The notes under the pieces: generated by a model
The model's input: the letters and a program-made list of their open reading frames with translations, nothing else
Told to the model about the DNA's origin: nothing
Databases searched by the model: none
In this document: positions 2,248 to 63,676 of the stretch, in pieces
Layout: every line of letters begins with the position of its first letter
How positions within the stretch are numbered: position 1 is the stretch's first letter
Assembly (NCBI GenBank): GCA_037179385.1
Contig: CM074190.1
Coordinates: forward strand, 5,718,284 to 5,782,283
DNA: 64,000 nt
DNA from: Holothuria scabra
Taxonomy: Eukaryota > Echinodermata > Holothuroidea > Aspidochirotida > Holothuriidae
Direction of reading: 5' to 3'
Program-made: the position numbers and the translations under genes

Positions 2248-2556
2248 TTAGCGAATCAGAAGCCTCGATGTTTTGAAAAGTTTACCCCAAAGTGTCTGAG
2301 GGACATCGACACGGTAATCGTTATGAAGGGTCAGTATTTTCGTCATCACCGAATCTCTTTCGTGTAACGGGTCGTAATCCTCTTCATAGGTAGGTAACGC
2401 AATAACTCTTCCATTCATTTTGTCTCCGTAGTACTTTAGATTCTCGTTACCTTGTCGATTCAAGTAAGTTTCAACGGTTCCTTCTCCAATCACGTCATCT
2501 GAGTTAAGAATGATAAGAATTGCATGCTTCCAAACATCACTTCCAAAGTATTTCTT
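2248..2556 (-). CDS. Gene 1 terminal exon: second half of the GIMAP-like domain
   Basis: The acceptor TTTTCATTGCAG precedes AAG AAA TAC, and the frame ends with TAA at 2250-2248, giving 102 codons plus the stop. It encodes KKYFGSDVWKHAILIILNSD, then DVIGEGT, YLNRQGNENLK, NGRVIALPTYEEDYD and a basic tail. In GIMAPs this region is FG...ILFTRKEDL...YL...N..L..L....GGR; the G4 TxxD is replaced by LNSDD. The match in order and spacing is the best evidence for the family. Confidence 0.85.
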   Translation of the reverse strand, partial: KKYFGSDVWKHAILIILNSDDVIGEGTVETYLNRQGNENLKYYGDKMNGRVIALPTYEEDYDPLHERDSVMTKILTLHNDYRVDVPQTLWGKLFKTSRLLIR

Positions 2557-5500
2557 CTGCAATGAAAATAAAGAATAACATTTGAGTTGATAGATCGTTA
2601 TGCATCCAAATATTTGCTATTTAAACATTTGAGTGCTTTGATCATCACCAAATTTCATACTTAAAAAAACAAAACATTAACCTATATCTGAAAAATTTTG
2701 CAAATTTAATATTACTTGATTTTTAGATTTGATTTGTTTGATGTCTAAAGGATAGGGAACAAAATTGTACCTCCAAGTCAGCCATAGCTCGTTTAACGTC
2801 CGAGGAAAATCTTACAAAACTTGCATCAAATACCACAACAAAGCATCTGACGGTTTTAAAGAGTCGGTGTACGTCATAGACTGCTGAACGTAACTTGAAA
2901 TCTGCATATTGAGAGGGCGAGGCATACACTGTGACTTCAAAGTCATGGGTCTTCTCGTCTCCTTTAAATGTAAATTTTCTCTCTTGGTGTTCCATTCGCC
3001 GTGTCCTGCCTTGTGTAACAATTTCTCCTTGGTCTGATCGAAACATCTTCTGAAACATCTTTTCTCCACTCTTTTCGTGCAATCCAAATATAACAATGTT
3101 AATTTTATTTTCTTGTTGATTTCTTACATTCAGTTTAGGTTTCTTGGAAGAAAAAGGGGAGAAGATAATGATTAGGCACAGTGTTCCCAAGAGTGTAATT
3201 AAAAGTATACAGACTTTGCAATGACGTCACGTATCCACCCTGCTGGAAAACACTCGAGCCAAGTACCGGTCTGGCTTTGTGATGAACGCACTGCATAGAG
3301 TGCACTACTGTGGTAAACGCGATGTGCATATACACATTGAGCAAGGTATGTCGATTGTGATCTACTTCGTAGTTACATGCACACCAACATGGCTGCCACC
3401 GAGTGTTATGACGTCCTGTGAAAAGACTCTATAATGGCTTTAAAAATTAATTCTAATCAATTGGAAAATTTGATAAATGTTTACATGCTTACAAAATTGT
3501 GGTTTCTCGGCTACTTTTTAAGGGTAAATCTCCTTCAAATATTTCGTCGGTATACTGATACCATGTGATTTTATTTTCTAATGCAAACTGAACGTATGAT
3601 AACATAATCATTTTGAAACACGTCGGTATTAACAATTACGATTGAATATGAAAATATTTCTATTTTATTTTGCTCTCCGTTTTGGTTTCCTTCTTTCATC
3701 AGGAACCGGCCCCTGTGGGCTGGGGGTTGTAGAAAATACCCACGGTATTCCCCGCCTGCCGCAAGAGTCGACTAAACGGGAGACACTTGCACCGTATTTT
3801 AAGTGTATTACACTATATAACTCACTCGTGTGGGTGGATCGTTTAATCTTTTCTAAACAACTAATTAACGAACGAACTAACTAACCAAATAACTTCATCA
3901 AGAACCAGACCTGAAATGTGTTTCAAGTTTAATCTGATTCTGCTTATTTCGATATAAGCATATTAATTGTTTCATATCCTGCTGAAATACAAATTCTTCG
4001 TTTTTCTGTTAGCCTCACATATTGCTGTTCAATGGTCTGTTGAAAATGAGTAAACTTCAAACTTCACAGTTTCTCTTTTGTAAATTCAGAATAAAAGCTT
4101 CAAAGGTGTGAATTAAGTTACCGTCTCTCTCTTTGATGATGACATTTCACTTTTGCTTTCCTCTTTGTCTCCTTTCTTCGCTGTCTAAAAAAAAATTAAA
4201 AATGCTGTAGTTAAGATACCTTCATCAGATTCAATGGAAACATGTCATACTGTCTGTCAACAGTAACGATACGATTGTCTGTGTTAAAACAGACAAAAAT
4301 ATACTTTTCGATTTCTTTAATGTATCATATACATGTAAAGCTTCAAAAGATCTCAATCAAACATCGTTTGGCGTTTGCATTTAAAACAAATAAAACGAAT
4401 ATTTGTCTAAGATATTGAGCAGAACTACAAGCAGAATGAAGCGGTATATTTTGCACACCACTCTTTCCCAAAAGATATTCTTCGCTTGATTCTCATGGAA
4501 ACTCAGTTCCTTTGTAATTTGTAAGTGCAATTTTAAAAGGGAAATTGCCTGCAGGTCACTATGAAATAGTGAATCCATGGTATCACTAGTGATCTCTGGT
4601 GCCACAGACATGTCCAATTTATGCACAAAACCCCATCATTAACCTTCTTTCTGTCCAATGTAGTTAATCATGGTGTTGCAACTTTTTCTTTTCATCATAT
4701 ATCAAATATGTATACAAAGCATTTTTATCACTGAAACAAAAGCAGAAAACTAAGTTCATATTAATCATAAGAATAACTAAACTGACAAAACCAAAAAGCT
4801 CATTGTAATTGCTTAAAGGAGCAGTGGCGTAGCCACGGGGAGGGGGGCTGGGGGCCTAGGGCCCCCAGATTTTCTTCAGGCCCCCAGACTTTTTGCGTCC
4901 TGATAAAGTAATTGAAAAAAAATAAAATGTTCGAACGGAAGTCAAAACTGACGTTTTCCCTTCAAAACAGTAAATAAATAAAATGTGTAAATATTAAAAA
5001 AAAAAACATGGATGAATGTGTGTAAAACACATTTTGTGCGCACGTATGGAATCAAGTAAAAACTTCAAAATGCCTACTTTCAATGTGATCTGCACTGTCG
5101 TTTATTGCATTTCACTTCGAAGATGAAACGGAAGTCTCGACCACAAACTTTAATGTGACTTTGTTAGGTTAAGACCCTTTCTGCCTTTCGGATGGCTGAT
5201 TGATTTACTGAAAATAAGGCAATCGTACACTGGAGACCACTCTTGCACGACCATTCCTGTACTTTATCATTCACAAAATATGCCGTAAGCAAGTAATGGT
5301 AAGGTACTGCCTTCGGATAATTCTTCCCTTGAATCCTTAACAAGTAGGCCTATGTCGTGCCTCACTCCTGAACAAGACAAGTGCCACTGTAGAACGATTT
5401 TTTCGACCTCTTTTTACTACTTGGCACTGGAGTCCGGGGGATTTGTAAAATGTCCACAAGGTCCGGGTTTCATGTGTTTCCCACATTATTCATATTTTGA

Positions 5501-24040: not shown

Positions 24041-24340
24041 TTAAGACGAAGACAGTCTTCGAATTTTACCCCACAGTGTGGTTGGTTGGAAAGGTTCGTA
24101 GTCTCTTGGAATGGTTAAAATAACTCTTATTAACTCATTCATTTGGAGTTTTAGATCATAGTCGTCTTCATAGGTAGGTAAAGCTATGGCTCTTCCCTCC
24201 ATCCTGTCTGCGTAATGTTTCAAGTTCTCGTTGCCGACTCTGTTCAAATAGTTGTGAAGAGTACCGTCTCCAAGAACATCATCTGCGTTTAATATGACTA
24301 GTATTGCATTCTTCCATACGGTTACTCCAAAAAATTTCCA
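24041..24340 (-). CDS. Gene 2 terminal exon: second half of the GIMAP-like domain
   Basis: The acceptor TTCATACTTTCAG precedes TGG AAA TTT; 99 codons plus a stop follow. It reads WKFFGVTVWKNAILVILNAD and then YLNRVGNENLKHYADRM.GR-like sequence, ALPTYEDDYD, and a short basic/serine tail. The intron upstream is 537 bp and in the same position as in the paralogues. Confidence 0.87.
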   Translation of the reverse strand, partial: WKFFGVTVWKNAILVILNADDVLGDGTLHNYLNRVGNENLKHYADRMEGRAIALPTYEDDYDLKLQMNELIRVILTIPRDYEPFQPTTLWGKIRRLSSS

Positions 24341-26739
24341 CTGAAAGTATGAAAAGGGAGATGGATAAAAAAATATTTTTATTATTAAATTTGCTTTTTC
24401 ATGGCGATTGATTTCAATGCAATAAACTTGTAGCATGTATTGGTTTGTGCCTGCGCTAGTAAGAGTGTTAGCAGCTTTGAAATATGTATTTAAGCATACA
24501 CCGTTAGGTAATAAATGTAAATATTGTGTTGAATTCGAAAGTATAGGCCTAAAGAGGGAGTTATAATCTTTACATAGTCTTCTGAACCATACATCAAATA
24601 TAAATAAAAACACAAGGCAACCCTTTCATTTTATTACAACAAAGATTGAACACTGAGAAAAGAAAACCTGTGAAATAATTATAATAACTGTTCTAGTAGT
24701 AGGTAACCACCAAAAATCTCCGATATGTTCGTTTGAGCGCAGTTACTGTCTCAGTGCAGTTAACTGCTTTCTTTTCTTATATTTTGGTACACTTACTTCT
24801 GTTTGATGTGTAATTTGTTTCATTTAATCGTCTCTTAGGTTGAAAAGGAACTTCTAATTTTAAATGAAAAGCCCTACCTCTAATTTATCCATAGCCTCTT
24901 TGACATCAGATGAAAATCGAACGAAATTGGCATCAAACACCACAATAAAACATCTAAACGCATTTTGGTATCTTTGTCGCACCTCATGGACCGTTGACGA
25001 TAATGAGTGTATAGCATGTTGCGTTGGAGAGACAAATAGAGTAGTCAAAACGTCATACGATTGATCTTTATAGCTAAACGTAATTTCCCTCTCTTTATCC
25101 TCCTCATTATATGAACTCTCATCTGTTGTCGATATATTCTCCCCGGAATATTGTTCGAATTTTTCAAACATTCTTTGACCGCTCTTTTCGTGCAGTCCAA
25201 ATATAATAGTAGTCAAGTTGACAAATTGTTTGCCATCTTCGACCGGTTTTGTTTTGAAATAGACGTACTTCTTTCGAAACGTTTTGGGCTTGTCTTCTAC
25301 GTTGACTTTGTTCACCTCCTGTAAAGTATAATGACTAAACTGCTAAATGATCTGTTAAACATCACAATATATCGAATCTCACGCATGTAAAGCATTTATA
25401 GATACGTATCTATAAACATTTTTTGAATGAAGGTCTGGCTTTGACGACTTCAAAAGACAGTATATTTGTATATTTTTGATACAAATGCTTTCAGTTATGT
25501 ATGTACTTAAAAAGTTGACCCCTTTAATGATCAACCCCTACTTTCCATTTCCCTGAGACCTATTCTAAATATCTAGAAGACAGTTACAACCTGGTAAAAA
25601 AAACACACACAATAAAGACAGCAAAGTTAATATTGCATGTAACATAGTGCACCTTCTGTGATTTAAACAATAGCCTTAGGCTTTGATTTGTTTTAGCCAA
25701 GTTTAGCTATTGTTTTTTTCTTTCTCTCAAAGGTAAAAGACCTGTTCCAGGGTATCAAAATGTTACTATCTGTAAGTAATAAGTACGCTCTAAATACGTC
25801 CGGTTCAAATGGAACCGGCAAGGATCAAATGGGCAATAAACCGAAAGAGGATCAAATTTCTGACTAGATTTGGGTTTATTTTGAACCAAAACCGGTTCAT
25901 TTTTGCACCGAAACTAGTCAAATATTTGAACCTTTTTCGGTTCAGTGTCCATTTGATCCTTTGCAGGTTCAATTTGAACCGCGCGTTTTTAGAGTGTGCA
26001 TGTATGGATCGAAGAAATAAAAAAGACGCTTATACATGTATGCATAACTAAAAGGGAAATGATAATAAGGAAACAATACATTAAACAATATCAATACGAA
26101 CATTGATACATGTGTATGAGAAGACTTAAGTAAAACATGAAAATTGATAAAGTGATAAGTGGTAACGAATAATTCCAATGTGTAATGCTAGTCAGTTGGG
26201 ACGCCCCAGTTATCCCTAAAAAGAATAGTCCAAAAGCTTATGAAAATTATTTAAGGACGTTGAAAATATTGTGAAACAACGTCCGCCAGCAGCACTTGGT
26301 TCAAAATATTTTGACCTCGGAGAAAAACTAAACGAAAACTTTGAATTATATCTGAGTTGGTCGACGAGGCCATCACGTCATGGATTCACTTTCTCTGAGT
26401 GATCCGTTGGTAAAGAAGCCCCCAGTAATCCTGAAGAAGGCTGAATTAATGAAACTGACTTATGATGCAAGAGAAAATATGTGGCAACTTTGAGAGTTTG
26501 TTGGCTCGACATACAGTCAATTGTCATGGCACCGTTGATATATTGAAATTGAATTGACACTAACATGGTGATAGAAATTTGACAATGCACCAGTACGATT
26601 TAAAAGCTTCTAAGGCTGGTAAGGATTTGACATAGAAGACAAATCTTCATAAGGCAATACGTTTAAAAATGATAAAATGAGTGTAAACTTTCACCTGTAC
26701 AAAGATTGGTGGATATTGATGGTAGTGATTTCCAGACAT
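24041..26739 (-). CDS. Gene 2 (span of three inferred exons): short gene with the divergent GIMAP-like domain
   Basis: Inferred join: 26739-26695, 25318-24878, 24340-24041, about 261 residues. It is the simplest member of the array; only one short N-terminal exon was found, so it may be the most compact form or more exons may be missing from this model. The domain has IIFGLHEKSGQRMFEKF at the P-loop position, FVSPTQHA at G3, FRCFIVVFDANFVRFSSDVK for the conserved box and ILVILNADDVLGDGT at G4. The C-terminus LWGKIRRLSSS matches the LW.K.R.L ending of genes 1 and 3. No membrane segment was seen, and the product is predicted cytosolic. Confidence 0.75.
24878..25318 (-). CDS. Gene 2 penultimate exon: first half of the GIMAP-like domain
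   Basis: The acceptor TTATACTTTACAG and donor GAG|GTAGGG enclose 147 codons. The lead contains TFRKKYVYFKTK, a motif also seen as AFRKKYIYTNS in gene 4 and NFQERYVYCMT in gene 3. Then come TTIIFGLHEKSGQRMFEK, an acidic middle (SSYNEEDKERE), TLFVSPTQHAIHSLSSTV and the conserved box. Confidence 0.87.
25788..25994. mobile_element. Foldback MITE with GGTTCAAAT/ATTTGAACC core
   Basis: The two halves are inverted: CCGGTTCAAATGGAACCGGC plus AGGATCAAATGG on the left and CCATTTGATCCTTTGCAGGT plus TCAATTTGAACCG on the right. The ends are CTCTAAATACG and GCGTTTTTAGAG. The CTCTAAA...TTTAGAG ends recur in other foldback elements in the window (47041, 50991). It is in the first intron of gene 2. Confidence 0.75.
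26695..26739 (-). CDS. Gene 2 probable start exon (15 codons)
   Basis: ATG at 26739 opens MSGNHYHQYPPIFVQ and a donor CAG|GTGAAAG follows in phase 0. A TTTTTTTAG a few bases upstream of the ATG could instead be an acceptor, making this an internal exon. The short tyrosine/proline-rich peptide is not recognised. Confidence 0.5.
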
Positions 26740-29020: not shown

Positions 29021-29298
29021 ATATTTCATAGACTTTTTATCACTTTGAGCAGAACTTTGTCCTTCGTAAACGTGATGTGGTTCATTCTTCCCTGGTGACG
29101 AGGACCGGCCCGAGATGAAACAACAGTCGAGTCCTGAATACATACTTATTATTACATGCACAGTTAGATTTGAGAACTACTCAGTGTATTGTTAGAATAT
29201 TACTAGAAATGTTTCAGTTTATCCTCTAGCTACGAAAGGGTTATGACCTAACCCATTGCTGTATGGCCAACATTCTGAAACGATTTGAACAAACCTGG

Positions 29299-33703: not shown

Positions 33704-36700
33704 CTAAATTGTGTCAAATAAGAAAATAAGTTAAAAAGACTTCTACATTACAATACTTTGTTAAAAGAATGAAATATTAAAACCCACGTCTTTACTTCTT
33801 GTTTTTTTTTTTTCTTTCATCATATCAGTTCAATTTACAATACACATTGTGACCTTGAAATTCCACGTGCAATCTGACGATCTAATTATCATTTTCAATT
33901 GAAAGGTTGTATTTTTACCCGGAGTAGTGAAAACAAAATTCTCTTGTAAACATTTAACATCTTTTCTCAACACATAGTTTAGAAAAAGCAAAGCAAAATC
34001 AATCCAAAGTTAATATCTGTCAGAACAAAATTTATTTCAACATGCAAAGTTATCCACAGCAACTTACCACCGGTGACTAAGAGCTGGGGAAATGTATAAA
34101 TCGAATAGAATAAGGTAATCCTGTGTTTAATCTAGATATATAAATTGGACCCAATTCTACGTACGTCATTTTGGGGAGGCCAAGCCATCCGAAATGTTGA
34201 ACAATTTTACATTATGAACAGTCTATACATTGGATCAAGTAATGTGATAAGTGGTCTACAGCTCATATGAGATAGCTTAAAGGAATACCCATTACAACAT
34301 ACGTACGAAATATGCCAGAATAAATACAAACCAAATATCTTTTTGTATTATCCTGTTACATCATTATTTATGACAATCGAAAGGATCACATGCCAAGAGA
34401 TTTTCAAGGTTAAACTTTATCAAGCATGAACAAGTGAGAAAAATAAAAATAAACTGCGCGCTTTTAGATCTTTTTAATTCTATTGCATAACAATAGTTAT
34501 TTAACAAATTGAAGGCAGAAATAACACTGAACTACATACCTCTAAATGAGCCAAGGCTTGTTTTACGTCAGAGGAGAATCTTACGAAATTAGCATCAAAG
34601 ACTACGATGAAGCATCTAACGAGATTTTTGAATCGTTGGCGCACCTTACGGACAAATGATGATAATGAATATACTGCATACTGTGGAGGGGAAGCAAACA
34701 CGGTAACTGCTACTTCGCCAGGCATATATATAACCTTTCCTTCCTTAAATGGCTTTCGGTGAGTTCTCATCGTGCTCAGGTTTTCCTCTCGAACGTCGTT
34801 TGGAAACAGTTTCTGGAACATTTGCCCCCCACTCTTCTCATGGAGTCCAATTATCACAACGTTCATTTCAACTTCTTTAGGTTCTTCTTCTATCAGTGCT
34901 GTCATGCAGTAAACATATCTCTCCTGGAAATTTCTTATTTTCCGCTGCCTCGAGTTGAATCTGGGAACCTTCACCCAAATGAAATGAAACCACAAGGTAC
35001 TACAAGGAAACGTTGATGTTGCAAGTTTGTGGCAAGTACAAATTGTGAAAGTTATTAAAAAATACATGTTTAGCAATGAGACGCGTTTTAAAACGAAATG
35101 TTTATAAAACAGGTAATAAAACAGGTGTTGTAGCATCTGTGAACATATTTACAAAGAGGGGTTGGAAAGCGTTAAGAAAAAATTAAATGTTTAATTCCTT
35201 AACACCTTTTTAAAGTATGTGCAATCTAATAAGGGCATACAATGTGATAATGATGGCATCTGCTGAGAACTATACTACCCACGCGAAACTCACACGGTGA
35301 TCTAAAATGTACGATCTTAAATTGAGCACACGTTAGAAAATACCACATTAGCAGATTTAAGTTGGTGATCCCACCCAGACTTTGTGTTTCCCACGTGAAA
35401 CGCATTATGCAATAGGCTTTGTCACAGTGCAATAGTGGACTAAACATTAAATTATTCAACTCTGAAAGGTCTAAGCTCTGGAAAGAGACAGAATAAGATC
35501 ATCCAGCATGATGGTATATATGTAAGAGGAAATAAGCTTAGCATCTATCATGCAGCCCCTTGTAAGGTCATTTTGCGTCCTCGACCTAGGCCATTTAGCT
35601 CCATCATGACATCCAAATGATTATATGGAGTTAACTTGAAGGGAAATGTATGCAGAAGTAGCTTTGTCTTCGTACCAAAACTCTGCTTGAAAATGGACAT
35701 GAGTTTGTCACTATACTTTGCTGTATTATCCTTTCTCGTCTGAGCAATTTTTCTAATTCGTTGAAGGTGTTGCTCGGTGCCATGAAATTATAATACGCAA
35801 CAAAATATGGTGATTTTTTGTAATATCACATACAATTACATAGCTTCGTTTTTACGAACTGCGCAAAGTAATTCTCCCATTTAAAAACTGGCTATCTTAT
35901 AAATGACGAAAGATTTAAATTGCTGTGCCAAAATTCAACATTAAACAAAATTATATCTTGCAATGACAAACGCGCATAACGCAACAAGTAACAGTTACAT
36001 CGAGGAACTTTCGTTTTGCATTTGACTTCTTCTTTAGTACTCAAACAAGAAGTTTGTTATACATTAAAGGCATATTTTCATCAACCCAAACAGTTCCAAT
36101 TCTCCCAACCTACTTACTTCTAGCCCCTCCCACATTTATCTAAAACTCATCTTTATCCAGACACAATCCTAGTTTATTGCTTCATGGCTTGTCCCAGTGG
36201 CCATACAAGTCCATAATGTGTATTCAAGACACTCTCAGTGCCCATGCTGTGTAATTTAGCTATGATGCTTTGTTTGAATGTGATGCCAATCAAAGAGCTG
36301 TACCAATTGAGAGTTTTGATATATGTATACTGAAACTGTAGTTTACTTTACGATTGCTTATAGACATTAGTATGGTAGATCTAATGAATTTGGGGGGCCG
36401 GGCAGCAGTGAATGATACAAATTAAGGACCTTGGTCGACTTTAGGTAGTTGAGTCATCCTTTACAGGTACACCTAACCGATACACAGATTGGTTATATCT
36501 GTTGGTCTAATTTAATTTGCAATGGTAGGCGGTTGTCTCCATGAACCCGATTCCTAAATCGCAATCACAAAGGAAAAAATCTATCCCGCAGTCCTTTGTA
36601 ATTTCTACTTAGAAAGGGTCTATGAAAGACGCAAGTTCTCTTGTATGACGTCGTATTTTTATGTGGTCTTTACTCTTTGTTCTCTCAAAATACAACCGTC

Positions 36701-39700
36701 AGACACAGTGCACGCGTTCACTTCCACCTCCCATACTTTTGTATAATTCTATGGATTTTCGGGTTTGACATGTACTCACCTTCTTAGTTCCTGCCACAGC
36801 CGTTTTGTTTTGTTGGTCTTCCGTTTCCTTGTGTAGGGTCTTTAAATCAACAAAAGAAATATCGAGTATTTGTATTTTTTCGAAGTTGATATTATGGATA
36901 GTTGCCTTCTGTTATATTCCTCTAAATTACTTCTACGTCATCTATGACGTAGACGTAGCCATAGAGAAAATGAGATGTAAATATTTAAAATTTTACAAAG
37001 GTTGTCAGAAAATACAACCTCAATTGCCAGTGATCTTACTTACATTACACCTATTAAAAGTAATACATAAATATATAAATTTAGATAAAATCACCTCATC
37101 ATTTTCTTGATTTGATACAGTGGTAGGTGACTCAGCCTGATGTACTTCAGACCTATCACGATCCGGTGATGTTGAATTGACATGCCCCTCAGTCTGTCCC
37201 TCATTCTCTGTGTTTGTTTTTATTTCCGTTGGTACAACTGTTGATGATGTTACTCCATTCTCGAGAGAACCGTCCTCAACTTTCTTGGAGTCGTTATTCA
37301 TTGGAAGGGGTGCTGAGTTAGTTGTAATGGGAGGTGTTTGACTAAAAATATTTTCTAATACATCTTCTATTGGTGGAGGTTCGTGTGAAGATATCTTCGA
37401 CATCTGAATAATGTCGTCTTTTAGGATTTCGTGTTCTTTACTGTTTGCGTTAATATGTGAAGACGTTTCCTCGTCTTGTCTCTCCGACAACTTGGAATTT
37501 GCTGCCTTCGGTTTAGGGGCCACGGGTGGCTTTACTCTTACAATCTGAACGTACATTGGAAAAACATAGGTTAACCAAACATGTGATGACATGGATCTGC
37601 ATAATAAAAGCATATATATGAACAAGCATAGGAGTACGAGGGGTAATTTTCTACGAGTGAGCAAGAGCATGTTTTTCGAATAATGTCACCATTTAACATG
37701 TTTTGCCCATGTTTTACAAATGCTTTTTCCCGAATTGGGAACGCGAGTGCCCCTTGCACCAACGCTTCGTACGCCTATGTGAACAAGCAATTACGGATTA
37801 CATCAGTCTGTTCATTTTGGTGTAGCTGTGTGTTTTAACTTCATTAGAAGTAGTAAGTTGCTGAGGTAAACATGTTTTAGAACACCCCTGGAACATAAAA
37901 GAAATATCTATAAACAGTGCTAACTTTGTTTCATTCACAATAAAATTGTTTACATTTATAAACATTGTTACAGACAACTTGAAAGCATTTCAATATACAC
38001 AGAAAAATCAATATTTAACAAGTCGCAAACTAAACCAATGAATTCTTTCATTACGGTAAGAGAAGTGGATATATATTCCGTGCTTTAATTAGTAGAGAAC
38101 GTAAATTTGGATACACAGTTAGTTGTTTTGTTTCACATTTGTTTGATTTTGGGGTCTCGTTGGAGAATATAAAAGAGGTTAAAAGAGGTTAAAAGAGGTT
38201 GACTGAACGCCTTTAAAAGAATTCGGTAAGAAGAAGAGAGGCAGACATTAGAAATTTTACCAAGGTTGGAAGGTGTAACAATTACATTATACTTGTGATG
38301 AAATAAATGAACATATGAGTGAAGAAAGTATATCACCTTATCCATCCGTTGGTTGAATGCACTAGGTGTTGTTGTCTGAGACACGTTCGAAATAGCAGGT
38401 TCACTATTTGTTGAAACAGATGTTGAATTAATGTAAACTGTTGGTCCTTCTTTCTGTGTGTTTTGCTCTATTTTCCTTGGTTGAACTTGTGGTGAATCTA
38501 CTCCATTCCCAAAAGAGTAATTGTCCCTAACTTTCTTACAGTCGTTATTTGTTGAAAGAGAGGCTGATTTAGTTGTGATGGAAGGTGATTTACCTTCTGA
38601 TACAACTTCTTTTGGAAGATGACTTTGTGAAGGAGTCTCTGGAGCCTTATCAATAAGATACATAACTGTATCGGATTCTTTGCTAATCGGTTTATTGTCC
38701 CGTGATTTATTCGTTGACATTCCTCCCTCTTGTTCCAGAGACAATTTGAAATTTACAGTCTTCGGTTTAGGAGCTACAGGTGGCCCTACTCCTCCCTTCT
38801 GCAAGAAATAAGAGAAACATTGATTGACAAAACATGAGAAGAGGCTGTCTAAAGTATTTGGGAACCACCTGTAAGGAAATTGCCGTAACACAAGACATGT
38901 ATATAAACAGTGCTTGATGTGATTTTGTTGCATTACATTGATAGGTTGTAAGATATCGTTGCAAATAAGTATTTCAGTACACAGAAATAGATATTCATGG
39001 AAACTTATTTTGCCACAACACAGAGCGAGTATTATACGGCAATGTGCTCGTATTGAACGTGCTTTAAAAGTTTAAGAAACTCATTGAATTTGTCACTGTT
39101 TCGTCTTACTCCTTTTATATGGAATGTTACACTCACAAAAACTTTTCCTTCCAAAACGTCCTCATTACCCTTTTGATTACTGGAATCATTGTGACGTGTC
39201 TAATTTGAGTGGTGTAAACACGTCACATACAATTTTCTATTTAACTGAAACAAAGGTATGTAAATATTGCTATTGATTCACGATGACTCCTAGAAAGCAC
39301 AGGGTTGATTGTGAAATAATTCAATATTGAACCAGGGAGCTGCTATTGACAGATCCCTGGTTAAACTGCTTTCAGGAAAGTTAGACAGTTGAATATTGAA
39401 AATTTTATAGGCCTATAAGATCAGGAGAATGAAGGGTTGCACGACAAATGGTATCCAATGATTCATCCAAAATGTTGAGAAAATGTTCAGTTTGAGAAGA
39501 AGACCGTAATCATTTTATTGTCGGCACTATTAAAAGCGCTCAGGAACGTTTGTCTGAAGTGTTGAAATTAATTACATTCCAATTAAAAATCTTTATCACA
39601 TAAATTTGGAAAATGAAATTGCAATTTCGTTTTATCACCTAATAATGAACCAGTTTAGGGCTGTTACTGCCCATTTGCTATGAGTGCTTTCTATACTCCT

Positions 39701-42125
39701 ACAAAGAGACAGGTACGTTGTGCGCTTTCTGATGTTGTTGAGACGTTGGCTCATTGAAAAATCGCATTCCCTTGTAACCTTTGACCTTTAGACCACAACT
39801 ATAACTCATAATTTGCTAATTGTGAACAAACCTTTTCCTTGTGTTCATATGAAGCCGCGGGTGATGTCACAAACCTGACGCAATTTTCGACTTCCTTCAG
39901 TCTGGTGCTTGTGGTTGGAGAAACTGACAGGCTCTCGTTATACATCTTCTGCTGTTGTTTTGTAGTTTGTCCCCTTGGTTTCGTCCAAACTGGCCCTTCT
40001 AGCTTTTTCAAAAGCTTAAACTTTTTTGTTGTTGCTATGACATTTTCTGAGGGTAATAATTGTGTTTGATCGATGAACATTTCTGACTCTTTTCTGCGTT
40101 GTCCGTTCATCAGTATGTCAGGTGTCAACATCTTTTCATTTTCATTTTGAGGTAATGTAGACTTCTTTATCTTTGGCTTGGGTAGCACGGGTGGACCACA
40201 CCTCTTTGTCTAAGGAATCGAAGAAGAAAACATGAAAAATCCTGCGGAATCCTCAAAAAAAATTTACCGACTAAAATACTAATACGAAGTTACACCCTGA
40301 TTTGGGGTGGAAATAAAACAGACACTAGCTAAGTGAATGTTTTCTTAACCGTACACATTATAAATGCAAACTCTTGACGTAGTGCAACGTCATTTTTAGA
40401 GTAAACGATTGTTTTGGAAAATAGAATGTTTATCGTGCTTGAGTTTTAATCATTATTTGATGCATGCTGCTATTAATAGAATTCACGAAATTCAGACTTG
40501 GAGGTTTGATGAGAAAACACTAATCCCTAAATGAATCAAAATTTTGTAACTCACCATTAAACTTCATTATTTGTACAGTGTGCAACAAGCCAGAAGTAGT
40601 CTAATTAGTTGTTAATGCATAGCAATAAAGTCTAGGTCAAATTTCCCATTACTTTTCAATATAACCCCTCCCCCATTCATTGTTTGTATCCCGCTAAAAC
40701 AAAATCGGACTCAATCTTTATTTTAACTTATGAGGTGACTTAACGGGATAAATTAAGATCGAATTGAACTGTCCTCTGTGGGCAGGGGGGTGCAGAATAT
40801 GCTCATGGTATTTGCCGAATGTCGTAAGAGGCGACTAAAGGGAAACCAAATTTGAACTTGAACCATACTGATAAATAGGTTTAAACTTTAAACTTTTTAT
40901 CGAGTTGACTGAATTAATATAACAGATTAATCGTGTTGGTGTGACGTTAAATCCCATCTAACTTACTTTCTTCTTACGAATATTCTATTAAATTTCTTTC
41001 GTGTCAGAACTGTCGCACGGCACAATGTTATGTCGCTTTCAATACCAAGACGCATGTTCTTGTTGCAAAGAACAAATATCCTGATTCAATAAAAATCTGG
41101 GAGTGGATTACGTTTTTGATGCCATGGAGGTACTGCCGTAATACATCCATCGTAATGGTGACCATTTTATGCCTACTAGCAGTAGATAAACACTGTAAAA
41201 CACACGTTGTTAAGCTATACGATACCTTTATAAAGGGGTCAATCCAAATCTAGAGTCTAGGTCAAGACACAATTCACCGGGACATGTGCTCTTCTCAACA
41301 TCATAGTCCGCGCGGCTAACAACATGGTAAAATCTAGGTTACAAATGTTTTTACGTAATATAGCACTATAGACCGATCAGTAACCACGTGGACAAATTTC
41401 ATTTCATTTCATTTATTTGTTTTTCCACAATATTCGATAGTAATTGGTACAATACACAGAAACAAAAGCAGAATGTTACATGAAATCAATAATATTGTGA
41501 AGGGAAGCACTCTAAAAAACCCATAGGGTTTGTCGAGTAGAGTGCTCCCAGGAAACAGAAAAAGAAACAGAAAAGAACTAGGATAGTACAAACTAAAAAA
41601 GTATAAGAGGACAGGATATAACAAAACAAAGAGAAAACACATAGATCAAGAATACCTGTCCAAAGTCACACCCTCAATCCCTCCCTAAATAGATTTAGAA
41701 ATTTGCTAGCATGACGGTCCAATTGTTGAAAATCTTGACGTCTGCAGGCACCACATAGGCCTATGCACCGCAGGAACAATGCTTTACTAACAGAATCATA
41801 CAACAATTACGGACTCACCGGCTGCGGCGACTAACACCCCTGAATTTCATTCCCATGAAGAATGAGGATAAATCCATTTTCAAAATGTGTTTAAAAATGA
41901 AGGTTAGAGTTGGAAGAAAACTTATAGTTATGTAGACCAGATACATTTTTCATGTTCGTTTAAAATCCTGTGTCAGAATTGCACAAGAAAGGTTGAAAAG
42001 TTTTGGTTTTAAGCGTGTGGCCTTTTTCCAAAAACTAATTTACATTTAGAAGTATTCTTAGTGAACACCAAAATCAAAGAAAATCAACGACTTACCATTT
42101 CATTAGTTCTGGAATTAGCTTCCAT
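33398..42125 (-). CDS. Gene 3 (span of seven inferred exons): repeated PPV.PKPK exons plus divergent GIMAP-like domain
   Basis: Inferred join: 42125-42096, 40209-39832, 38798-38337, 37544-37095, 36839-36780, 34968-34540, 33703-33398, about 704 residues. A 10-codon start exon is followed by three long exons, each opening with a proline/lysine motif (GPPVLPKPK, GPPVAPKPK, KPPVAPKPK). These resemble SH3-domain ligands and could recruit an adaptor. The domain has VVIIGLHEKSGGQMFQKLF, VFASPPQYAVYSL, the box FIVVFDANFVRFSSDVK, and LVILNSDDVIGEGT. The Ser/Thr-rich middle is predicted disordered. An AATAAA on the minus strand (33384-33379) lies 13 bases after the stop. This is the most complete model in the window: start codon, exon frames and poly(A) signal agree. 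Confidence 0.8.
34540..34968 (-). CDS. Gene 3 penultimate exon: first half of the GIMAP-like domain
   Basis: The donor GAG|GTATGT is clear. The acceptor GGGTGAAG before GTT CCC was chosen for phase 0 and for length agreement with paralogues (143 codons); TTCCCAG eight bases on is an alternative. The reading includes RNFQERYVYCMT, EVEMNVVIIGLHEKSGGQMF, YMPGEVAVTVFASPPQYAVY and RCFIVVFDANFVRFSSDVKQ. Confidence 0.83.
35040..35220. repeat. ATGTTTAG-type palindromic repeat block in gene 3 intron
   Basis: ACATGTTTAGCAATGAGACG, CGTTTTAAAACGAAATG and the end AATTCCTTAACACC, then TTTTTAAAGTATG, match the blocks at 1751-2065 and 33080-33315. Confidence 0.55.
36780..36839 (-). CDS. Gene 3 small exon (20 codons)
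   Basis: TTGATTTAAAG precedes ACC CTA CAC, and a consensus donor AAG|GTGAGT ends 60 bp reading TLHKETEDQQNKTAVAGTKK. It resembles in size and charge the 21-codon linker exon before the domain in gene 1. The acceptor is pyrimidine-poor, so the exon is less certain than its neighbours. Confidence 0.5.
37095..37544 (-). CDS. Gene 3 PPVAPKPK cassette exon (150 codons)
   Basis: The acceptor AATGTACGTTCAG and donor GAG|GTGATT enclose 450 bp. It starts IVRVKPPVAPKPKAANSKLS and is then Ser/Thr/Asn-rich (SHEPPPIEDVLENIFSQTPP, ITTNSAPLPMNNDSKKVEDG) to QENDE. It is clearly paralogous to 38337-38798: PPVAPKPK, ITT.SA.L..NND.KKV and NGV line up. The first 25 codons may be the functional SH3-ligand part. 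Confidence 0.8.
37545..38336. other. Gene 3 intron, nothing further recognised
   Basis: This intron separates the two sister PKPK exons. Apart from short T- and A-rich words and a triple GTTAAAAGAG at about 38177-38200, no repeat or extra exon was identified. Confidence 0.4.
38337..38798 (-). CDS. Gene 3 PPVAPKPK cassette exon (154 codons)
   Basis: The acceptor TTATTTCTTGCAG and donor AAG|GTGATA enclose 462 bp. It starts KGGVGPPVAPKPKTVNFKLS and goes on SITTKSASLSTNNDCKKVRD and NYSFGNGVDSPQVQPRKIEQ to QRMDK. It is the tandem sister of 37095-37544. Confidence 0.8.
39832..40209 (-). CDS. Gene 3 PPVLPKPK exon (126 codons)
   Basis: The acceptor CGATTCCTTAG and donor AAG|GTTTGT enclose 378 bp. 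It starts TKRCGPPVLPKPKIKKSTLP and continues with Lys/Glu/Gln-rich sequence (FKLLKKLEGPVWTKPRGQTT) to AASYEHKEK. It shares only the first motif with the next two exons, so it is an older or more diverged copy. Confidence 0.75.
40768..40980 (+). mobile_element. SINE-like element, copy 2
   Basis: GGGCAGGGGGGTGCAGAATA followed by GTCGTAAGAGGCGACTAAAG matches 3704-3890. A GTGACGTTAAATCCC word near the end is common at SINE 3' ends in invertebrates. It lies in the first intron of gene 3. Confidence 0.6.
42096..42125 (-). CDS. Gene 3 start exon (10 codons)
   Basis: ATG at 42125 opens MEANSRTNEM and a consensus donor ATG|GTAAG follows in phase 0. The context AAAATGG is acceptable for initiation. 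No acceptor-like sequence lies directly before it, which fits a first coding exon. Confidence 0.7.
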
Positions 42126-46870: not shown

Positions 46871-46902
<32 letters not shown>

Positions 46903-50239: not shown

Positions 50240-50318
50240 TTTCATACAATATATCAGCATGTCTTTGGTGACCTGTTTTGAAAACGACACCACTCTCCTT
50301 CCCCGCACAGTTGTTCCA

Positions 50319-50672
50319 TTACGCCTCCATTTCGGACTCTTCTTCCGTACGTATTCGTTCCCCGTTAGCGGTGAACAAATGTTGTAATTTACCGCGTATT
50401 TTGAGATGTGCATTTTTCTTCTTACCAGGCTGATACACAGTTTTGTCTCGACATATTAAACTTAAAATTTCCTGTCTCTGAAACTCTAACTTATAATCGT
50501 CCTCGTATGTTGGCAGTGCTAAAACTCCGCCTCCCATTTTATCGGCGTATTTCTTTAGTTCGTTGTTACCCTCGCGATATAAATAATCCAACACAGTACC
50601 CTCATCGAGTACGTCGTCCGAGTTTAAGATAATAAGAGTCGTATGAGTCCAAACAACTTCTCCGAAAAGTTT
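50319..50672 (-). CDS. Gene 4 terminal exon: second half of the GIMAP-like domain
   Basis: The acceptor TACCTTCATTCAG precedes AAA CTT TTC; 117 codons plus a stop follow. It reads KLFGEVVWTHTTLIILNSDD, then YLYREGNNELKKYADKM, GGGVLALPTYEDDYK, and a tail with KKKNAHLKIRGKLQHLF and an acidic end. It is about 15 residues longer than in the paralogues. Confidence 0.85.
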   Translation of the reverse strand, partial: KLFGEVVWTHTTLIILNSDDVLDEGTVLDYLYREGNNELKKYADKMGGGVLALPTYEDDYKLEFQRQEILSLICRDKTVYQPGKKKNAHLKIRGKLQHLFTANGERIRTEEESEMEA

Positions 50673-53600
50673 CTGAATGAAGGTAAAAATTAAGAATAAA
50701 ACGTAATACTTCTCTTTTACGTAATTATCAGGTACCAGATTTTTAATATATTTCAGTTATATGTTTTTCTTTTTCGAAACAGTAGGCCTATTGCAGTGGT
50801 CTTGTGGTGTTAGATAGAGTTTTACGCCCAGTTTCCAACCTATTGGTTCAAGTCGAGCCGGCCACGACCTTTTTACCAGTTGTGGCTCACTGGCCTGTTT
50901 TCCCTAGTGGTGTAAGAAAATTTTTGAATCAAACAAAAGATTTAACAGAAAAGAAAAAGTAAATGAATTACAATTGAGAAGCAAACTACCCTCTAAAATC
51001 AAAAGAATGAAATCAGTCACTCGCTATTAGAGTGAAAAATGTGCATTCACTCCAGGAGAGTGCTACTTTACTTCAGCAAGAGTGACATTCACTCCAAAAA
51101 GGTGTAATTTACTCCAAACGGTGAAATTTACTCCAAAAGAGCGTAGTTTCACCCTTGATGGAGTGCTTACAGTGATCACCTTTAAAGAAGACTGAACACC
51201 GCAGACACTCTTGACAGAGTGAATTTTCACTCTTCTTGGAATGAATTAACACTAATGGAGTGAATTCAAACTTTTACAGAGAGTGACCAAGTTCACTTGT
51301 TACTCTCGTTTGATTTTGGAATGACTCTCTGCTAGAGTGAAAAGTGTAAATTCACTCCATTAGTGTGAAAATTCACTCGAAGGTAAAATTCACTCAACGA
51401 GGATTGAAAATTCACTCTTTCGACGAGTGTCTGCAATGATCCCTCTTATTTAAGATTGATCACTGTAGAAACTTCATCAAGGGCGAAATTAGGCTCCTTT
51501 GGAGGGAATTTGACTCTTTATAAATCGGAAAGCAGTCACCCCAAACTTGCTTTAAAGCAGCAGCTGAATGTCACAATTTTCCTCTTATTTCTGTTTAAAG
51601 TATCTTTCAAATCATTTGATAACTTTATATTGTTTATTCAAGGTAAACCAAACACAGTTTCTCGTAGCAAATTTCACAACCGAGGAGGAGAAATATTGTC
51701 ACATGACCTTAAAGAGCCAATTATGAAACAGGACAGTCTGCTACACTACTTTAACTTGGGGGACTGCTCTTGTCCTTTAAAGTGAATGTCGCTCTTCTTC
51801 GAATCAATAAACACGCATATAGACTTAATAAACTCTATCAGAGAATGACTAAGTTCACTCATTTGATTTTAGAGTGTGTGTGAAAGAGTTAGTTAGAAAG
51901 AGTATTACGGTCCAGTTTCCGACCTATTGGTGAGTGAAAGGAAAAATATCTTCTAAATCTATCCTCTAAATCTAAAACATTATTCTGCACCACGCACCCC
52001 TAAAAGCTAGATACCTCATTTTAAAGATTCATAACTCTCGTTTAGAGACATCAACAGTTACCGGTATCATCAAAATGATAAACTTAGACGATAGGTGGGC
52101 ATATTCCCTAAGATTTCTTCTGCTTAACTCGTAATTGTATGTCCTGCTTGTCCTTGAATACCGGTCCATTTATACCTAGAATGGTGCTACTTAATATGAC
52201 GATAAAAATGAAAAATTTCATGGAGTAATGCCGATTTCTTATATTAATGCCAGACTATGTGTAATTAATCAACCAAAATGACATCACATAATTTTCATAA
52301 TTAATGTACTGCAGTATCGTCCAAATGCTGTATAGCTTTTGACTGTAAAGGATGTACTATGTGTTTCATACTTATATTTCCCTAACTTAACACAAATTTT
52401 AACACCAAGTTAAATATTGGTATTTTGGTTTAGGGGGGGGGTTCGGGTCAGTTTTACTTCTTATCTTGTAAACTCCTGAAGTCTTAAAAAACGTGTTTAG
52501 CAATTGAACACTTATTTCACCCCAATTTTGTATACACGTTGAAACATGAACATGTTTACCTATACTTAACAAATGAAATGTTTAGAAATTTAACCTGTTT
52601 CAAAACGAAATGTTTAGAAATTAGAAAATCGTGTTTAGCATTTTAAACATGTTTACAATGTGGGGGAAAACAAGTGTTTAGAAAAAATTTAACTCCTTCA
52701 CGCCGTTGTAACAATGATGGTTTAATCTAGATGCTCCCAGTTTATTCCCAGTTATGGGGCAACGTATAGTTTTCCATTCTCCATTATTTAAGGAGATCAT
52801 TACGCACAACTATAGAAGTTTCCATTTTTAATGTCTTTGCTGTGACTTCAAATAGGAATCGAACCCTGGTTCTCCGAGTGAAAAGCGGACGCTGTACTGT
52901 AGTTGAATATAAGTTATACGAAAGCTGGGCACTTGCCTGAAAATAAATCAGATACCTGAAAAGGATTCCTACTCTTAATTTCATCCTTCACCAACACGTA
53001 AACAAGTTGTTCATTTTAATTCTTAATAGTGTAGGTCAAGGAGTTACCTCGAATTTAGTCATAGCAGATTTCACGTCAGAAGAAAACCTCACGAAATTCG
53101 CATCAAACACCAAAAGAAAACTGGCAATTTTGTCAAACCGCCGAAAGGCTTCCAACGCGGTTGTAGAAAATGAATGGTCTGCGTATTGCGATGGTGCTAC
53201 AATGACTCTGACGACACTTGGCTCGATGCTCTCGTCTTCAAGTAAGTTTCCTTGTATTTCTGGGTTCTTCTGCACTTTACCATTGCAAATAACCGTACTT
53301 TGATCTATGATCTTCTCTTCGAATTTGAGCTCTTGGATCGTATTGTTATCCTTGACCTTTCCACCGAAAATTTTCTCAAATATGTATAATCCACTTTTTT
53401 CATGTAATCCGAATGTCACGATGTTTAATTTCTTCTTGTACAGATCACTGTTGGTATAGATGTATTTCTTTCTAAAGGCACTACGATCTGGTTCTTTTTC
53501 TTGCGATAAAATCTGAGAAAGATAATTATAACACTTTCGTATGTAAATCGTATTGGAAGAATTATTTGTAAAATAGGGGATAAAATAGCTCCCTCGAGAT

Positions 53601-62600: not shown

Positions 62601-63676
62601 ATAAGATCTTTCGAAGAAAATTCCTTCAACGGTTGTTATTTTTAAAGTTTAAAGTTCTGCCAGAAAAGAAACTGATGGCACGCTGAGGTCATTCCGTAGG
62701 CCTAAAAAAGTGTTGACCAATCAGCTGTTTGCATTTCCTAATGCTGTTTTGTTTTTTCTCCAAAATAGAACGTACATTTTGTGTTGTGACATCCATGCAT
62801 AAGGTCCATAGACAAATGGCCGCGCGCAGTAGAATTCGCATTTTGTGCGTAGAAGACTTACGCGCGCATCAGATGTTCTAAGCAGAGCAGATTGCTGATT
62901 GGGTTACAGTGGAATACGAGCGTAAGGGTACTCGAGCGTGTGCTCTACTGAGCGTACAGCGTGTTTCATTATTTTGCGCTACAATAATGTTGCTTGACCT
63001 CAATACAAAAGGTATAGACGCGTTTTCATTTATTGTCTACATTAATTTCAAACCCTCATATTCAGTAATATTGAGGAAATCAAAATGCAATATATTTTAC
63101 AACCATTCATGATGCAGATAAGCAAGAAAATTGAGAGATGAAAAGGTGATAAACCCGAGTCATGGCCGACTTGAATCAGACCATCAATTGCTGTCCGGAT
63201 TCGTCTGTATTGTGTGTACGCACCTTCTTCTCCTTACAAGTAGACGGTTGAGTGACTTGTGTAACGATGATATTCTGAGGACTTGATATCTCAAGTTTGA
63301 TGGAAGCAATCTAAGACAGCAATATATAAAACTATGGATGATTATAGAAAACCAATGATATTATGAAAAGGTTTTCTTTGTTTCGCATTGTAAAAAGGAA
63401 GAATTTTTGAAACAAGTTCAAGGATTTATACGTAAAGATTTATACGTAAAAATTTATAGCTTCATTTGACAACGTGGAACGTTCGTGACGAAAATACTTT
63501 TGATTTTCTAGGATAATCGAGCAAACCTTTAAATCTATTCGATAATTATTTCTATTCCAGTTTAGAAAACAAATGGATTTCATTATTTATTCACAGTCCA
63601 TTAAATAAACTACCTCTAAGCCTTTCACAGACACATCTTGTTTTGACCCAGGAAGATCCTCTTCATCGTTACCCAT
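50319..63676 (-). CDS. Gene 4 (span of eight inferred exons): mini-exon N-terminus plus divergent GIMAP-like domain
   Basis: Inferred join: 63676-63614, 63310-63224, 62299-62165, 58002-57970, 56136-56104, 55667-55635, 53512-53048, 50672-50319, about 400 residues. The N-terminus is short and acidic, with three 11-residue mini-exons (ITPEIDEVKTP, TAPKPYDIEDS, IAPELDETEDS). The domain is the most diverged of the four: IVTFGLHEKSGLYIFEKIF, VIVAPSQYADHSF, FLLVFDANFVRFSSDVK and LIILNSDDVLDEGT, with GGGV in place of NGRV. The C-terminus is longer and ends acidic (RTEEESEMEA), unlike the basic LW.K.R.L of the others. Several kilobases of inserted transposons swell its introns. An AATAAA on the minus strand (50239-50234) may end it. 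The first exon may not be the true start. Confidence 0.72.
50991..51874. mobile_element. Large foldback element with GAGTGAA/TTCACTC core
   Basis: The ends CTCTAAAATCAAAAGAATGA and TCACTCATTTGATTTTAGAG are inverted repeats. The interior has dozens of TTCACTC, GAGTGAA and ACTCCAA words in both orientations (51026-51442), for example GAGTGAATTTTCACTC. A second MITE (51515-51782) is nested inside. It occupies the last intron of gene 4. Confidence 0.8.
51515..51782 (-). mobile_element. CCTTTAA-ended MITE, copy 2, nested
   Basis: On the minus strand CTTTAAAGGACAAGAGCAGT, CATAATTGGCTCTTTAAGGT and CATGTGACAAT match 48203-48473. The far end CTTTATAAATCGGAAAGCAG mirrors it. It interrupts the GAGTGAA foldback element. 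Confidence 0.7.
52480..52690. repeat. ATGTTTAG/CTAAACAT short palindromic repeat block
   Basis: The block contains CGTGTTTAGCAATTGAACAC, GAAATGTTTAGAAATT (twice) and TTTAAACATGTTTAC. Related blocks occur at about 1751-2065, 33080-33315 and 35040-35220, always outside inferred exons. Confidence 0.6.
52845..52912 (-). repeat. tRNA-Glu-like fragment, not an intact tRNA
   Basis: The minus strand reads CGTCCGCTTTTCACTCGGAG then AACCAGGGTTCGATTCCTAT. CTTTTCAC around the TTC anticodon position and GGTTCGATTCC (B box) recall tRNA-Glu. The D arm and acceptor stem are not recognisable, so it is a SINE head or pseudogene. Confidence 0.45.
53048..53512 (-). CDS. Gene 4 penultimate exon: first half of the GIMAP-like domain
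   Basis: The acceptor TTATCTTTCTCAG and donor GAG|GTAACT enclose 155 codons. The lead ILSQEKEPDRSAFRKKYIYT shares FRKKYIY with gene 2. Then come NIVTFGLHEKSGLYIFEKIF, a longer charged insertion (LEDESIEPS), VIVAPSQYADHSF and SFLLVFDANFVRFSSDVKSA. Confidence 0.87.
53630..55354. mobile_element. TTAA-flanked inverted-repeat DNA transposon, non-autonomous, with nested insertions
   Basis: Ends GGCCTATCCACACAGGATG and CATCCTGTGTGGACAGGCC begin inverted repeats of about 190 bp that also share CGGATACGTCAAGACGCATG-like and GCTGATTGACAAAAAAGTG-like words. TTAA lies on both sides (53626-53629, 55355-55358), which fits a piggyBac-like target, though a TAA target of another superfamily is possible. The inside holds a second inverted repeat (53990-54030 against 54192-54235), two hAT-like ends (53981, 54594) and a complete small hAT-type element. 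No transposase frame was seen. Confidence 0.8.
54764..55040. mobile_element. Small hAT-type MITE nested in the TTAA element
   Basis: Ends CAGTGGCGTACACAGGA and TCCTGGGTACGTCACTG are near-perfect inverted repeats. Flanks ACTGAAAT and ACTGAAAG (54756-54763, 55041-55048) are an 8-bp duplication with one difference. Inside it shares ATGTGGCACCAGAT and CCCAGACCGGCGATCAC with fragments at 58.1, 60.3 and 61.5 kb. Confidence 0.8.
55635..55667 (-). CDS. Gene 4 mini-exon c (11 codons)
   Basis: CTTTTCTGCTTAG and CG|GTAAGTAG frame 33 bp reading IAPELDETEDS. Splice contexts are nearly identical to mini-exons at 56104 and 57970, and the surrounding 450 bp is duplicated with the 56104 copy. Confidence 0.72.
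56104..56136 (-). CDS. Gene 4 mini-exon b (11 codons)
   Basis: CTTTTCTGCTTAG and CG|GTAAGTAT frame 33 bp reading TAPKPYDIEDS. This copy carries APKP, recalling the APKPK motif of gene 3, though over so short a length this may be chance. Confidence 0.72.
56640..57969. other. Gene 4 intron between mini-exons, repeat-derived in part
   Basis: Around 56975-57005 the word GCCCCAACTGATGGTGACGC followed by TCCGC is a diverged copy of the hairpin word found inside the hAT-type elements. No further 33-bp exon or known gene was recognised. Confidence 0.45.
57970..58002 (-). CDS. Gene 4 mini-exon a (11 codons)
   Basis: CTTTTCTGTTTAG and CG|GTAAGTAA frame 33 bp reading ITPEIDEVKTP. It is the most diverged of the three mini-exons but keeps length, the TP/AP at residues 2-3 and both splice contexts. 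Confidence 0.7.
58080..58770. mobile_element. Decayed hAT-related fragment
   Basis: ATTTTACTTCAAAAGATAGC, ATGTGGCACCAGATTGAATG, CAATTTCTCAAAAATTTTCA and a decayed hairpin word near 58730-58760 match 60259-60992. Clear ends were not found. Confidence 0.55.
59449..59945. mobile_element. Charlie-like hAT MITE nested in the 2.2-kb element
   Basis: Ends CAGGGTTGTCCAACCTGCGG and CGAAAGGTTGGACAACCCTG are inverted, with GGCCCGCGGGCC next to the left end and TGTGGCCCACC next to the right. This is the typical look of Charlie-group hAT elements. Flanks TTCTACAG and TTCTACAA (59441-59448, 59946-59953) are the target duplication with one change. Confidence 0.88.
60259..60992. mobile_element. Degenerate hAT-type element nested in the 2.2-kb element
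   Basis: The right end AATCTTGCGTACGCCACTG is clear; the left, TAGTGGCATGCGAAGGGG, is decayed. It contains TACGCTCCGCGCCAACCAAT twice (about 60652 and 60888), and the ATGTGGCACCAGATTGC word. A target duplication was not found. Confidence 0.6.
61440..61556. mobile_element. Right-end fragment of a hAT-type element
   Basis: CACAGACCGGCGATCACTCA and GAGAAAAACCTACAAACGCC followed by ACTG match the right end of 54764-55040. The left part is missing. Confidence 0.55.
62165..62299 (-). CDS. Gene 4 exon (45 codons)
   Basis: The acceptor CATCTCTTTCAG and donor AAC|GTGAGT enclose 135 bp. It reads IVSISVFVSGSDECNAADTS then EKTRESAEDKVQFDISVSTN and TNNAN. It is Ser/Asp/Glu-rich, without a known domain. 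Confidence 0.68.
63224..63310 (-). CDS. Gene 4 exon (29 codons)
   Basis: The acceptor GCTGTCTTAG and donor AAG|GTGCGT enclose 87 bp reading IASIKLEISSPQNIIVTQVT and then QPSTCKEKK. Like several exons of this gene it begins with Ile-Ala/Val/Thr, which may reflect shared ancestry of the acceptor side. Confidence 0.62.
63614..63676 (-). CDS. Gene 4 most upstream inferred exon (21 codons), possible start
   Basis: ATG at 63676 opens MGNDEEDLPGSKQDVSVKGL plus E, ending at donor GAG|GTAGTT. The bases before the ATG (TTTTATTTCTCAATTTTAAG) also look like an acceptor, so the exon may be internal with the real start beyond 64000. The MG start could in principle be myristoylated but lacks Ser/Thr at position 6. 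Confidence 0.55.

Follow-up and report, generated by a model that had tools for sequence, protein, structure and literature searches.

Extracts of two papers tie GIMAP/AIG1 proteins to immunity from corals to mammals (PMC3723955, PMC8201404); extracts likewise underlie the other citations given here. A 2013 survey reports, in the passages concerned, no AIG1 in a sea urchin and several in an acorn worm (PMC3723955). Mammalian GIMAP2 and GIMAP5 bind guanosine triphosphate (GTP) and do not hydrolyse it alone, and GIMAP7, which is itself a GTPase, promotes hydrolysis by GIMAP2 (PMC8201404). It acts through dimerisation and a catalytic arginine finger (PMC8066113), and arginine fingers of this kind are common to septin-like GTPases (PMC11238149). 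Septin pseudo-GTPases have lost catalysis and kept a hetero-oligomeric interface at the pocket face (PMC10731463). Here we describe a family of five tandem genes related, by sequence comparison, to AIG1/GIMAP. Four of them (A-D) lie in a window of 64,000 bases, the whole stretch of DNA that was analysed (G000:C12:5718284-5782283, guanine and cytosine content 36.5%); the assembly surveyed, probably that of an animal, comprises 1.19 Gb in 31 contigs. The genes lack the G1 and G3 motifs, are predicted to encode pseudo-GTPases and, on balance, are likely to be non-catalytic partners of canonical GIMAPs of the same genome.

Five tandem genes with a domain divided between two exons

Genes A-D lie on the minus strand, and each has one common domain that is divided between two exons (Table 1). 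Joining the two exons gives an open frame in all four genes, across phase-0 introns with GT donors and AG acceptors, and each frame closes with an in-frame stop; the domain introns measure 214 to 2,375 bases. The exon ends that a preliminary description of the window had given for four minus-strand genes were exact, and the conserved intron that it placed after the residues LE is present (FE in gene D). Protein identity to A is 49% for B, 53% for C and 42% for D; blastp between single exons of the family gave expectation values (E) down to 7.6e-42, so the likeness of A-D is not due to chance. In the gene models the A-D frames end shortly past the domain; the AIG1 matches to the second half that occur at other places in the genome, by contrast, sit in open frames 115 to 787 residues long.

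The fifth copy, gene E, lies 9.4 kb to the left of the window. It reads GLHENAG for GLHEKSG, has NRSQYA at switch II and forms the longest terminal branch within the family in the tree described below. The tandem array proposed in the preliminary description is real but was undercounted at four genes, since E lies outside the window, and the family that it called expanded does have multiple copies but is modest, with five at one locus. An exon-level search of the whole assembly with P0003, one of the relatives introduced below, gave six matches, all on exon 1 of the five copies, and a search with exon 2 of gene B gave five family matches and one at E 1.04. No family copy was found outside the 65-kb cluster in these exon-level searches of the 1.19-Gb genome, the counts of which are lower bounds.

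The GTPase motifs are replaced by a fixed signature

Motifs were counted in nine exon-1 sequences, those of A-E and of the relatives P0001-P0003 and P0008; P0004-P0007 were left out as exon-2 pieces. Walker A/G1 (G....GK[ST]) and the G3 motif DxPG (D.PG) are absent from all nine, which bears out the suggestion that the family has lost its GTPase motifs. At the place of the P-loop stands GLHE[KN][SA]G, with GLHE in 9/9, and the Lys-Ser of GLHEKS is closer to the glycine, by two residues, than the pair of a genuine P-loop. Sequences at switch II include ASPSQYA, VSPTQHA and VNRSQYA (Q-Y/H-A). The box VFDA-F-RFSSDVK occurs in all nine sequences; its RFSSDVK (also 9/9) aligns with canonical RFTxED and has Ser in place of Thr. 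The box had been claimed for the window and reads VFDA[NS]FVRFSSDVK in A-D, and the stretch previously given as ILNSDDV..GT..YL was found as ILN[SA]DDV..GT..YL. LN[SA]DD and ALP[TS]Y are near-invariant in the family. Canonical GIMAP/AIG1 GTPases thus differ in having GxxxxGK[ST] and DxPG, where the family has GLHE, VFDA-F-RFSSDVK and ALP-Y instead. The loss of Walker A and DxPG is plain; the sequences also indicate a loss of nucleotide binding.

All nine exon-1 sequences have an arginine in the box, and at all five loci this arginine is 14 residues away from the end of exon 1 at the intron. By way of the canonical gene L016 it corresponds in the alignment to residue 108 of the 3zjc chain, which is residue 103 of GIMAP7 (the offset was fixed by the name L100Q). 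Arg103 of GIMAP7 was reportedly identified as the arginine finger by Schwefel in 2013, and we take the box position to correspond to this trans-acting residue.

Relationship to AIG1/GIMAP

When the joined translations were checked against Pfam AIG1 (PF04548), as had been proposed, all four window domains scored above the cut-off of 27 (29.3-38.6 bits, profile positions 84-189). A profile of the four domains searched against the PDB returned GIMAP2 (four sequences) and GIMAP1 as its top five matches (E 0.003-0.013). Aligned by hhalign, the family and canonical exon-1 profiles gave E 1.3e-5 in global and 2.7e-4 in local mode. The last exon-1 residue falls in a single alignment column in 12/12 joined domains, five of the family and seven of canonical AIG1 genes. 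Structures were predicted for the two exons separately, from 7 and 4 sequences. The top six Foldseek matches of the exon-2 model are GIMAPs (E 0.07 or more, from a weak model), and the matches of the exon-1 half model, also weak, are mostly other GTPases. The family also resembles GIMAP/AIG1 GTPases in domain order, in the place of the conserved box with its RF, in the intron column held by seven AIG1 genes here and in clustering. Sequence comparison thus shows a relationship to AIG1/GIMAP, in agreement with the preliminary description of an AIG1-derived domain without normal GTPase motifs, and the family likely arose from an intron-containing AIG1 gene.

The assembly gave 51 exon-level AIG1 matches at E <= 0.001, and canonical first exons were read on C1, C10, C12, C17, C19 and C22. 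Thirteen of these exons were picked with a regular expression for Walker A and [DE]TPG, so that their carrying these motifs is by choice. L003, L017 and L022 repeat L016, L005 and L001, respectively, and L024 and L025 have no matching first exon in the stretch examined. The tree was built with the seven of the 13 canonical genes that have both exons, the exons being paired by nearness and exon 2 of L020 truncated where its frame meets a stop. Family and canonical domains form the two sides of a single fully supported branch, and the tree therefore does not point to a parent canonical gene.

Two further AIG1 loci were noted. L019 (G000:C19:9588500-9591300), which fell outside the regular-expression set and was read separately, is in other respects a normal AIG1 gene; it has GKTGSGLS, in which the Lys is replaced, keeps DTPG and has a GTN codon at the common donor place. 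It may represent a separate move toward a pseudo-GTPase. On the minus strand at L015:5146-5601 (G000:C12 near 6.11 Mb), about 0.33 Mb from the window, lies an AIG1-like first exon whose P-loop, GHTGSGKT, is intact and which also has DTPG.

Selective constraint and relatives elsewhere

Genes A-E are constrained. Over their ten pairs, synonymous differences reach a proportion of 0.69-0.86, which is near or at saturation, and replacement differences one of 0.28-0.46. Third codon positions are the most different in 10/10 pairs, and second positions the least in nine and equal to first in A-C. At the five loci the box VFDA[NS]F[VI]RFSSDVK is nearly invariant as protein and differs in its codons.

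Eight proteins from short contigs (P0001-P0008) resemble the family, with 54-84% identity to the best-matching locus. This locus is A for P0002, P0005 and P0006, B for P0001 and P0004, D for P0003 and P0007, and E for P0008; none of the eight matches C best. Since the genome searches gave only five copies, these proteins most likely come from other genomes, in which case A, B, D and E had already diverged before the split. P0005 and P0006 both resemble A but differ from each other, so that they stem from two genomes or two copies. In P0001-P0003 a Val (GTN codon) directly follows LE or FE, as at the donor in the window. A scan of viral contigs returned 39 pattern stretches and no relative of the family, and a viral origin was dropped on this result.

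Alternative explanations

Several observations weigh against our reading of the family as AIG1-derived pseudo-GTPases that act on canonical GIMAPs. The Pfam similarity is confined to the second half of the AIG1 model, and that model rang in 12/14 control genomes, bacterial ones included, exceeding the cut-off in seven; passing the cut-off alone therefore does not separate AIG1 from other GTPases. In the PDB the exon-1 profile matched only ribosomal uS4 (E 0.14), which we judged to be a chance match, and the hhalign probabilities for exon 1 are only 59% (global) and 41% (local). The half models are weak (mean predicted local distance difference test score, pLDDT, 49.4 and 67.6), neither gave a Foldseek match at E < 0.001, and a second look at exon 1 had non-GTPases, such as a nitrogenase-like protein and ATP citrate lyase, in its first six matches. 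The exon-1 half is connected to AIG1 by hhalign, the intron and weak fold matches; as to the intron, the GT donor has the same position in 13/13 canonical first exons, following ..[IVL]E or a variant of it, with donors chosen by a script that favoured AG|GTRAG and took the best GT within range. An unrelated Rossmann-like domain that is like AIG1 by chance could draw on the response of the bacterial controls, on a similarity that covers about 100 profile positions and on an exon-1 half without a significant sequence match in the PDB. It is nevertheless extremely unlikely, because the curated cut-off is passed by 4/4 domains, the intron column is common to 12/12 and GIMAPs come first for the exon-2 model. 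The loss of the canonical catalytic motifs would also be expected of dying copies, pseudogenes of a GIMAP cluster that drift after loss of function. We rejected this very unlikely explanation on the five open frames, the intact splice sites, the codon-position pattern, with synonymous change saturated and replacement change limited, and the relatives of A, B, D and E elsewhere (none for C).

Of 173 columns without gaps, 46 do not vary among the five loci, 24/37 inside the pocket-loop windows (G1 5/8, G3 1/5, box 10/12, G4 4/6, G5 4/6) and 22/136 outside, and 0/172 circular shifts of the windows do as well; to be held against this count, the windows were set after the alignment was seen, and the excess stems from the box and G1 more than from G3. 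The former-pocket loops, G3 excepted, are accordingly the most constrained, though the GTPase letters are gone. This distribution would suit a remodelled GTPase that still binds nucleotide, with GLHEKS as a contracted P-loop whose Lys-Ser holds phosphate and N[SA]DD as G4. The Lys-Ser pair is kept inside GLHEKS in 7/9 sequences, which leaves room for a shortened P-loop, and in LN[SA]DD the N and the two D are the same at 5/5 loci; this G4 place retains N and D but not K, and canonical genes vary there too (e.g. FTHSKG, SHADN). We consider a nucleotide-binding domain unlikely, given a loop two residues shorter than GxxxxGKS, the absence of DxPG from 9/9 sequences, and Asn-Ala in E and Lys-Ala in P0008 at the Lys-Ser places. 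Less likely again is a repurposed pocket, in which GLHE, QYA, FDA, NSDD and LPTY would form the site of a sensor for another small ligand or a peptide, independent of canonical GIMAPs. Invariance does gather in the pocket-loop windows, where the residues (His, Glu, Asp, Tyr) differ from the GTPase ones, and 4/4 relatives outside this genome retain the exon-1 portion of the signature; however, no ligand is known, and the same pattern would be expected of a protein interface at the pocket face, for which septin pseudo-GTPases provide a precedent (extracts of PMC10731463). The box arginine also calls for caution, since canonical genes have R at this place in 9/13 and K in 2/13, so that its retention alone does not establish a trans-acting role. 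It is the GIMAP7/GIMAP2 and septin precedents, together with the aligned box arginine, that lead us to favour a nucleotide-free docking partner and possible arginine donor.

Upstream exons and other features of the window

Every upstream (N-terminal) exon is a prediction from the DNA alone, with a tentative assignment to its gene. The disordered N-termini of the preliminary description would correspond to these predicted exons, which are best defined for gene C. Three candidates were assigned to gene C. Those at 38337..38798 and 37095..37544 are 39% identical to each other and have no further match in the genome, and the one at 39832..40209 has no Pfam match. Their PPV[LA]PKPK pieces resemble what we take to be SH3-ligand-type linkers. 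The candidate first coding exon of gene D ends where the interval of the preliminary description ends. A Pfam scan of nine candidate N-terminal pieces gave nothing credible. Upstream of gene A, two alike candidate exons on the minus strand (6664-6771 and 7877-8083) both end in ..SPQRK[QP]RN.K before GT, possibly an exon duplication.

The spacers A-B and B-C contain inverted repeat copies (18628-18762 and 28889-29176), and inverted near-copies resembling a foldback or a miniature inverted-repeat transposable element lie beside exon 1 of gene D (53565-53729 and 55243-55509). A (TGTTA)75 pentamer array with 99% matches at 19133-19507 is open in three plus-strand frames and constitutes a false open reading frame. 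To the left of the array, a reverse-transcriptase-like open frame (L014:8274-8930, plus strand) was recognised by eye only. ARAGORN found no transfer RNA in the window, and Rfam gave no match there at gathering scores.

Table 1. Coordinates of domain exons, signature motifs and candidate upstream exons (window positions unless a contig is given).
Feature	Position	Strand	Basis and remarks
Gene A domain exon 1 (degenerate G1 to conserved box)	2771..3142	-	open; acceptor CCAAG, donor GAG|GTACAA, phase 0
Gene A domain exon 2 (G4 to C-terminus, stop)	2248..2556	-	acceptor TTGCAG, ends TAA; joined protein vs AIG1 E 3.2e-8
Gene B domain exon 1	24878..25318	-	acceptor TTACAG, donor GAG|GTAGGG; relative P0001 64% identical
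Gene B domain exon 2	24041..24340	-	joined protein vs AIG1 E 9.3e-10; relative P0004 84% identical
Gene C domain exon 1	34540..34968	-	donor GAG|GTATGT; 5' acceptor predicted, uncertain
Gene C domain exon 2	33398..33703	-	acceptor ATTTAG; joined protein vs AIG1 E 6.4e-7
Gene D domain exon 1	53048..53512	-	acceptor TCTCAG, donor GAG|GTAACT; relative P0003 54% identical
Gene D domain exon 2	50319..50672	-	acceptor ATTCAG; joined protein vs AIG1 E 4.2e-8
Gene E (fifth copy) exons	G000:C12:5708476-5708868 + 5706831-5707160		exon 1 begins AG|ATG; same two-exon split
GLHEKSG in place of P-loop, gene A	3065..3085	-	exon-1 frame and motif test
GLHEKSG, gene B	25178..25198	-	exon-1 frame and motif test
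GLHEKSG, gene C	34828..34848	-	exon-1 frame and motif test
GLHEKSG, gene D	53390..53410	-	exon-1 frame and motif test
Box VFDASFVRFSSDVK (conserved box, invariant Arg), gene A	2792..2833	-	exon-1 frame, alignment, motif test
Box VFDANFVRFSSDVK, gene B	24899..24940	-	exon-1 frame, alignment, motif test
Box VFDANFVRFSSDVK, gene C	34561..34602	-	exon-1 frame, alignment, motif test
Box VFDANFVRFSSDVK, gene D	53069..53110	-	exon-1 frame, alignment, motif test
Candidate upstream exon of gene C, PPVLPKPK motif	39832..40209	-	open frame, splice-like ends by eye; scan favoured later acceptor 40176; tentative
Candidate upstream exon of gene C, PPVAPKPK motif	38337..38798	-	splice and coding scan; tentative
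Candidate upstream exon of gene C, PPVAPKPK motif	37095..37544	-	by eye; scan favoured later acceptor 37505; tentative
Candidate first coding exon of gene D, MGNDEEDLPGSKQDVSVKGLE	63614..63676	-	AG|ATG start, GAG|GTAGTT donor; tentative

Discussion

By analogy with mammalian GIMAPs and septins, we infer a regulatory partner role for the family domains. The domain would retain the G fold without nucleotide, and its old pocket face would dock onto a canonical GIMAP as GIMAP7 docks onto GIMAP2. The invariant box arginine may then be offered to the GTP of the partner, and the domain would set or end the active state of that partner without a nucleotide cycle of its own. The differing N-termini would direct each copy to its own site or signal. 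In its widest form this would be a two-class system, in which canonical GTP-binding GIMAPs work with nucleotide-free pseudo-GIMAPs that keep the pocket face and the arginine finger, and hence are built-in GTPase-activating proteins evolved from a GTPase and addressed by their N-termini; we put this forward tentatively and hold the complete scheme to be rather unlikely.

The proposed working has one thing in common with the GIMAP2-GIMAP7 heterodimer: across the pocket face, a G domain acts on a second one. It differs in the acting partner, which is predicted to be nucleotide-free in the family, whereas GIMAP7 is a GTPase and GIMAP2 is GTP-bound (extracts of PMC8201404). Septin pseudo-GTPases likewise combine lost catalysis with a retained pocket-face interface, as described in extracts of PMC10731463. 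Unlike the proposed partners, some septin pseudo-GTPases remain GTP-bound, and they belong to a different family with a different signature. The snail AIG gene Bg25758 is reported without G1-G3 motifs, as found here, but the passages concerned mention it as a single gene and not as a clade with a replacement signature (PMC7053062). Most snail gene models, according to the same passages, hold one AIG1 domain in one exon, in contrast to the two-exon domains described here. No such clade is described in the extracts of septin, snail and coral work that made up our literature on GIMAP/AIG1 pseudo-GTPases, subscription papers being outside its scope. Within the known AIG1/GIMAP family, the genes described here form a branch of predicted pseudo-GTPases that bears its own signature.

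A link of the family to defence is plausible by analogy with GIMAP/AIG1 relatives in lancelet and coral papers. The fixed signature (GLHE, VFDA-F-RFSSDVK) makes further relatives easy to find. For control of the GIMAP GTP cycle, the mammalian proposal is dimerisation between members. A clade that keeps the pocket face without the pocket chemistry would, if our reading is true, be a natural loss-of-catalysis test of that idea.

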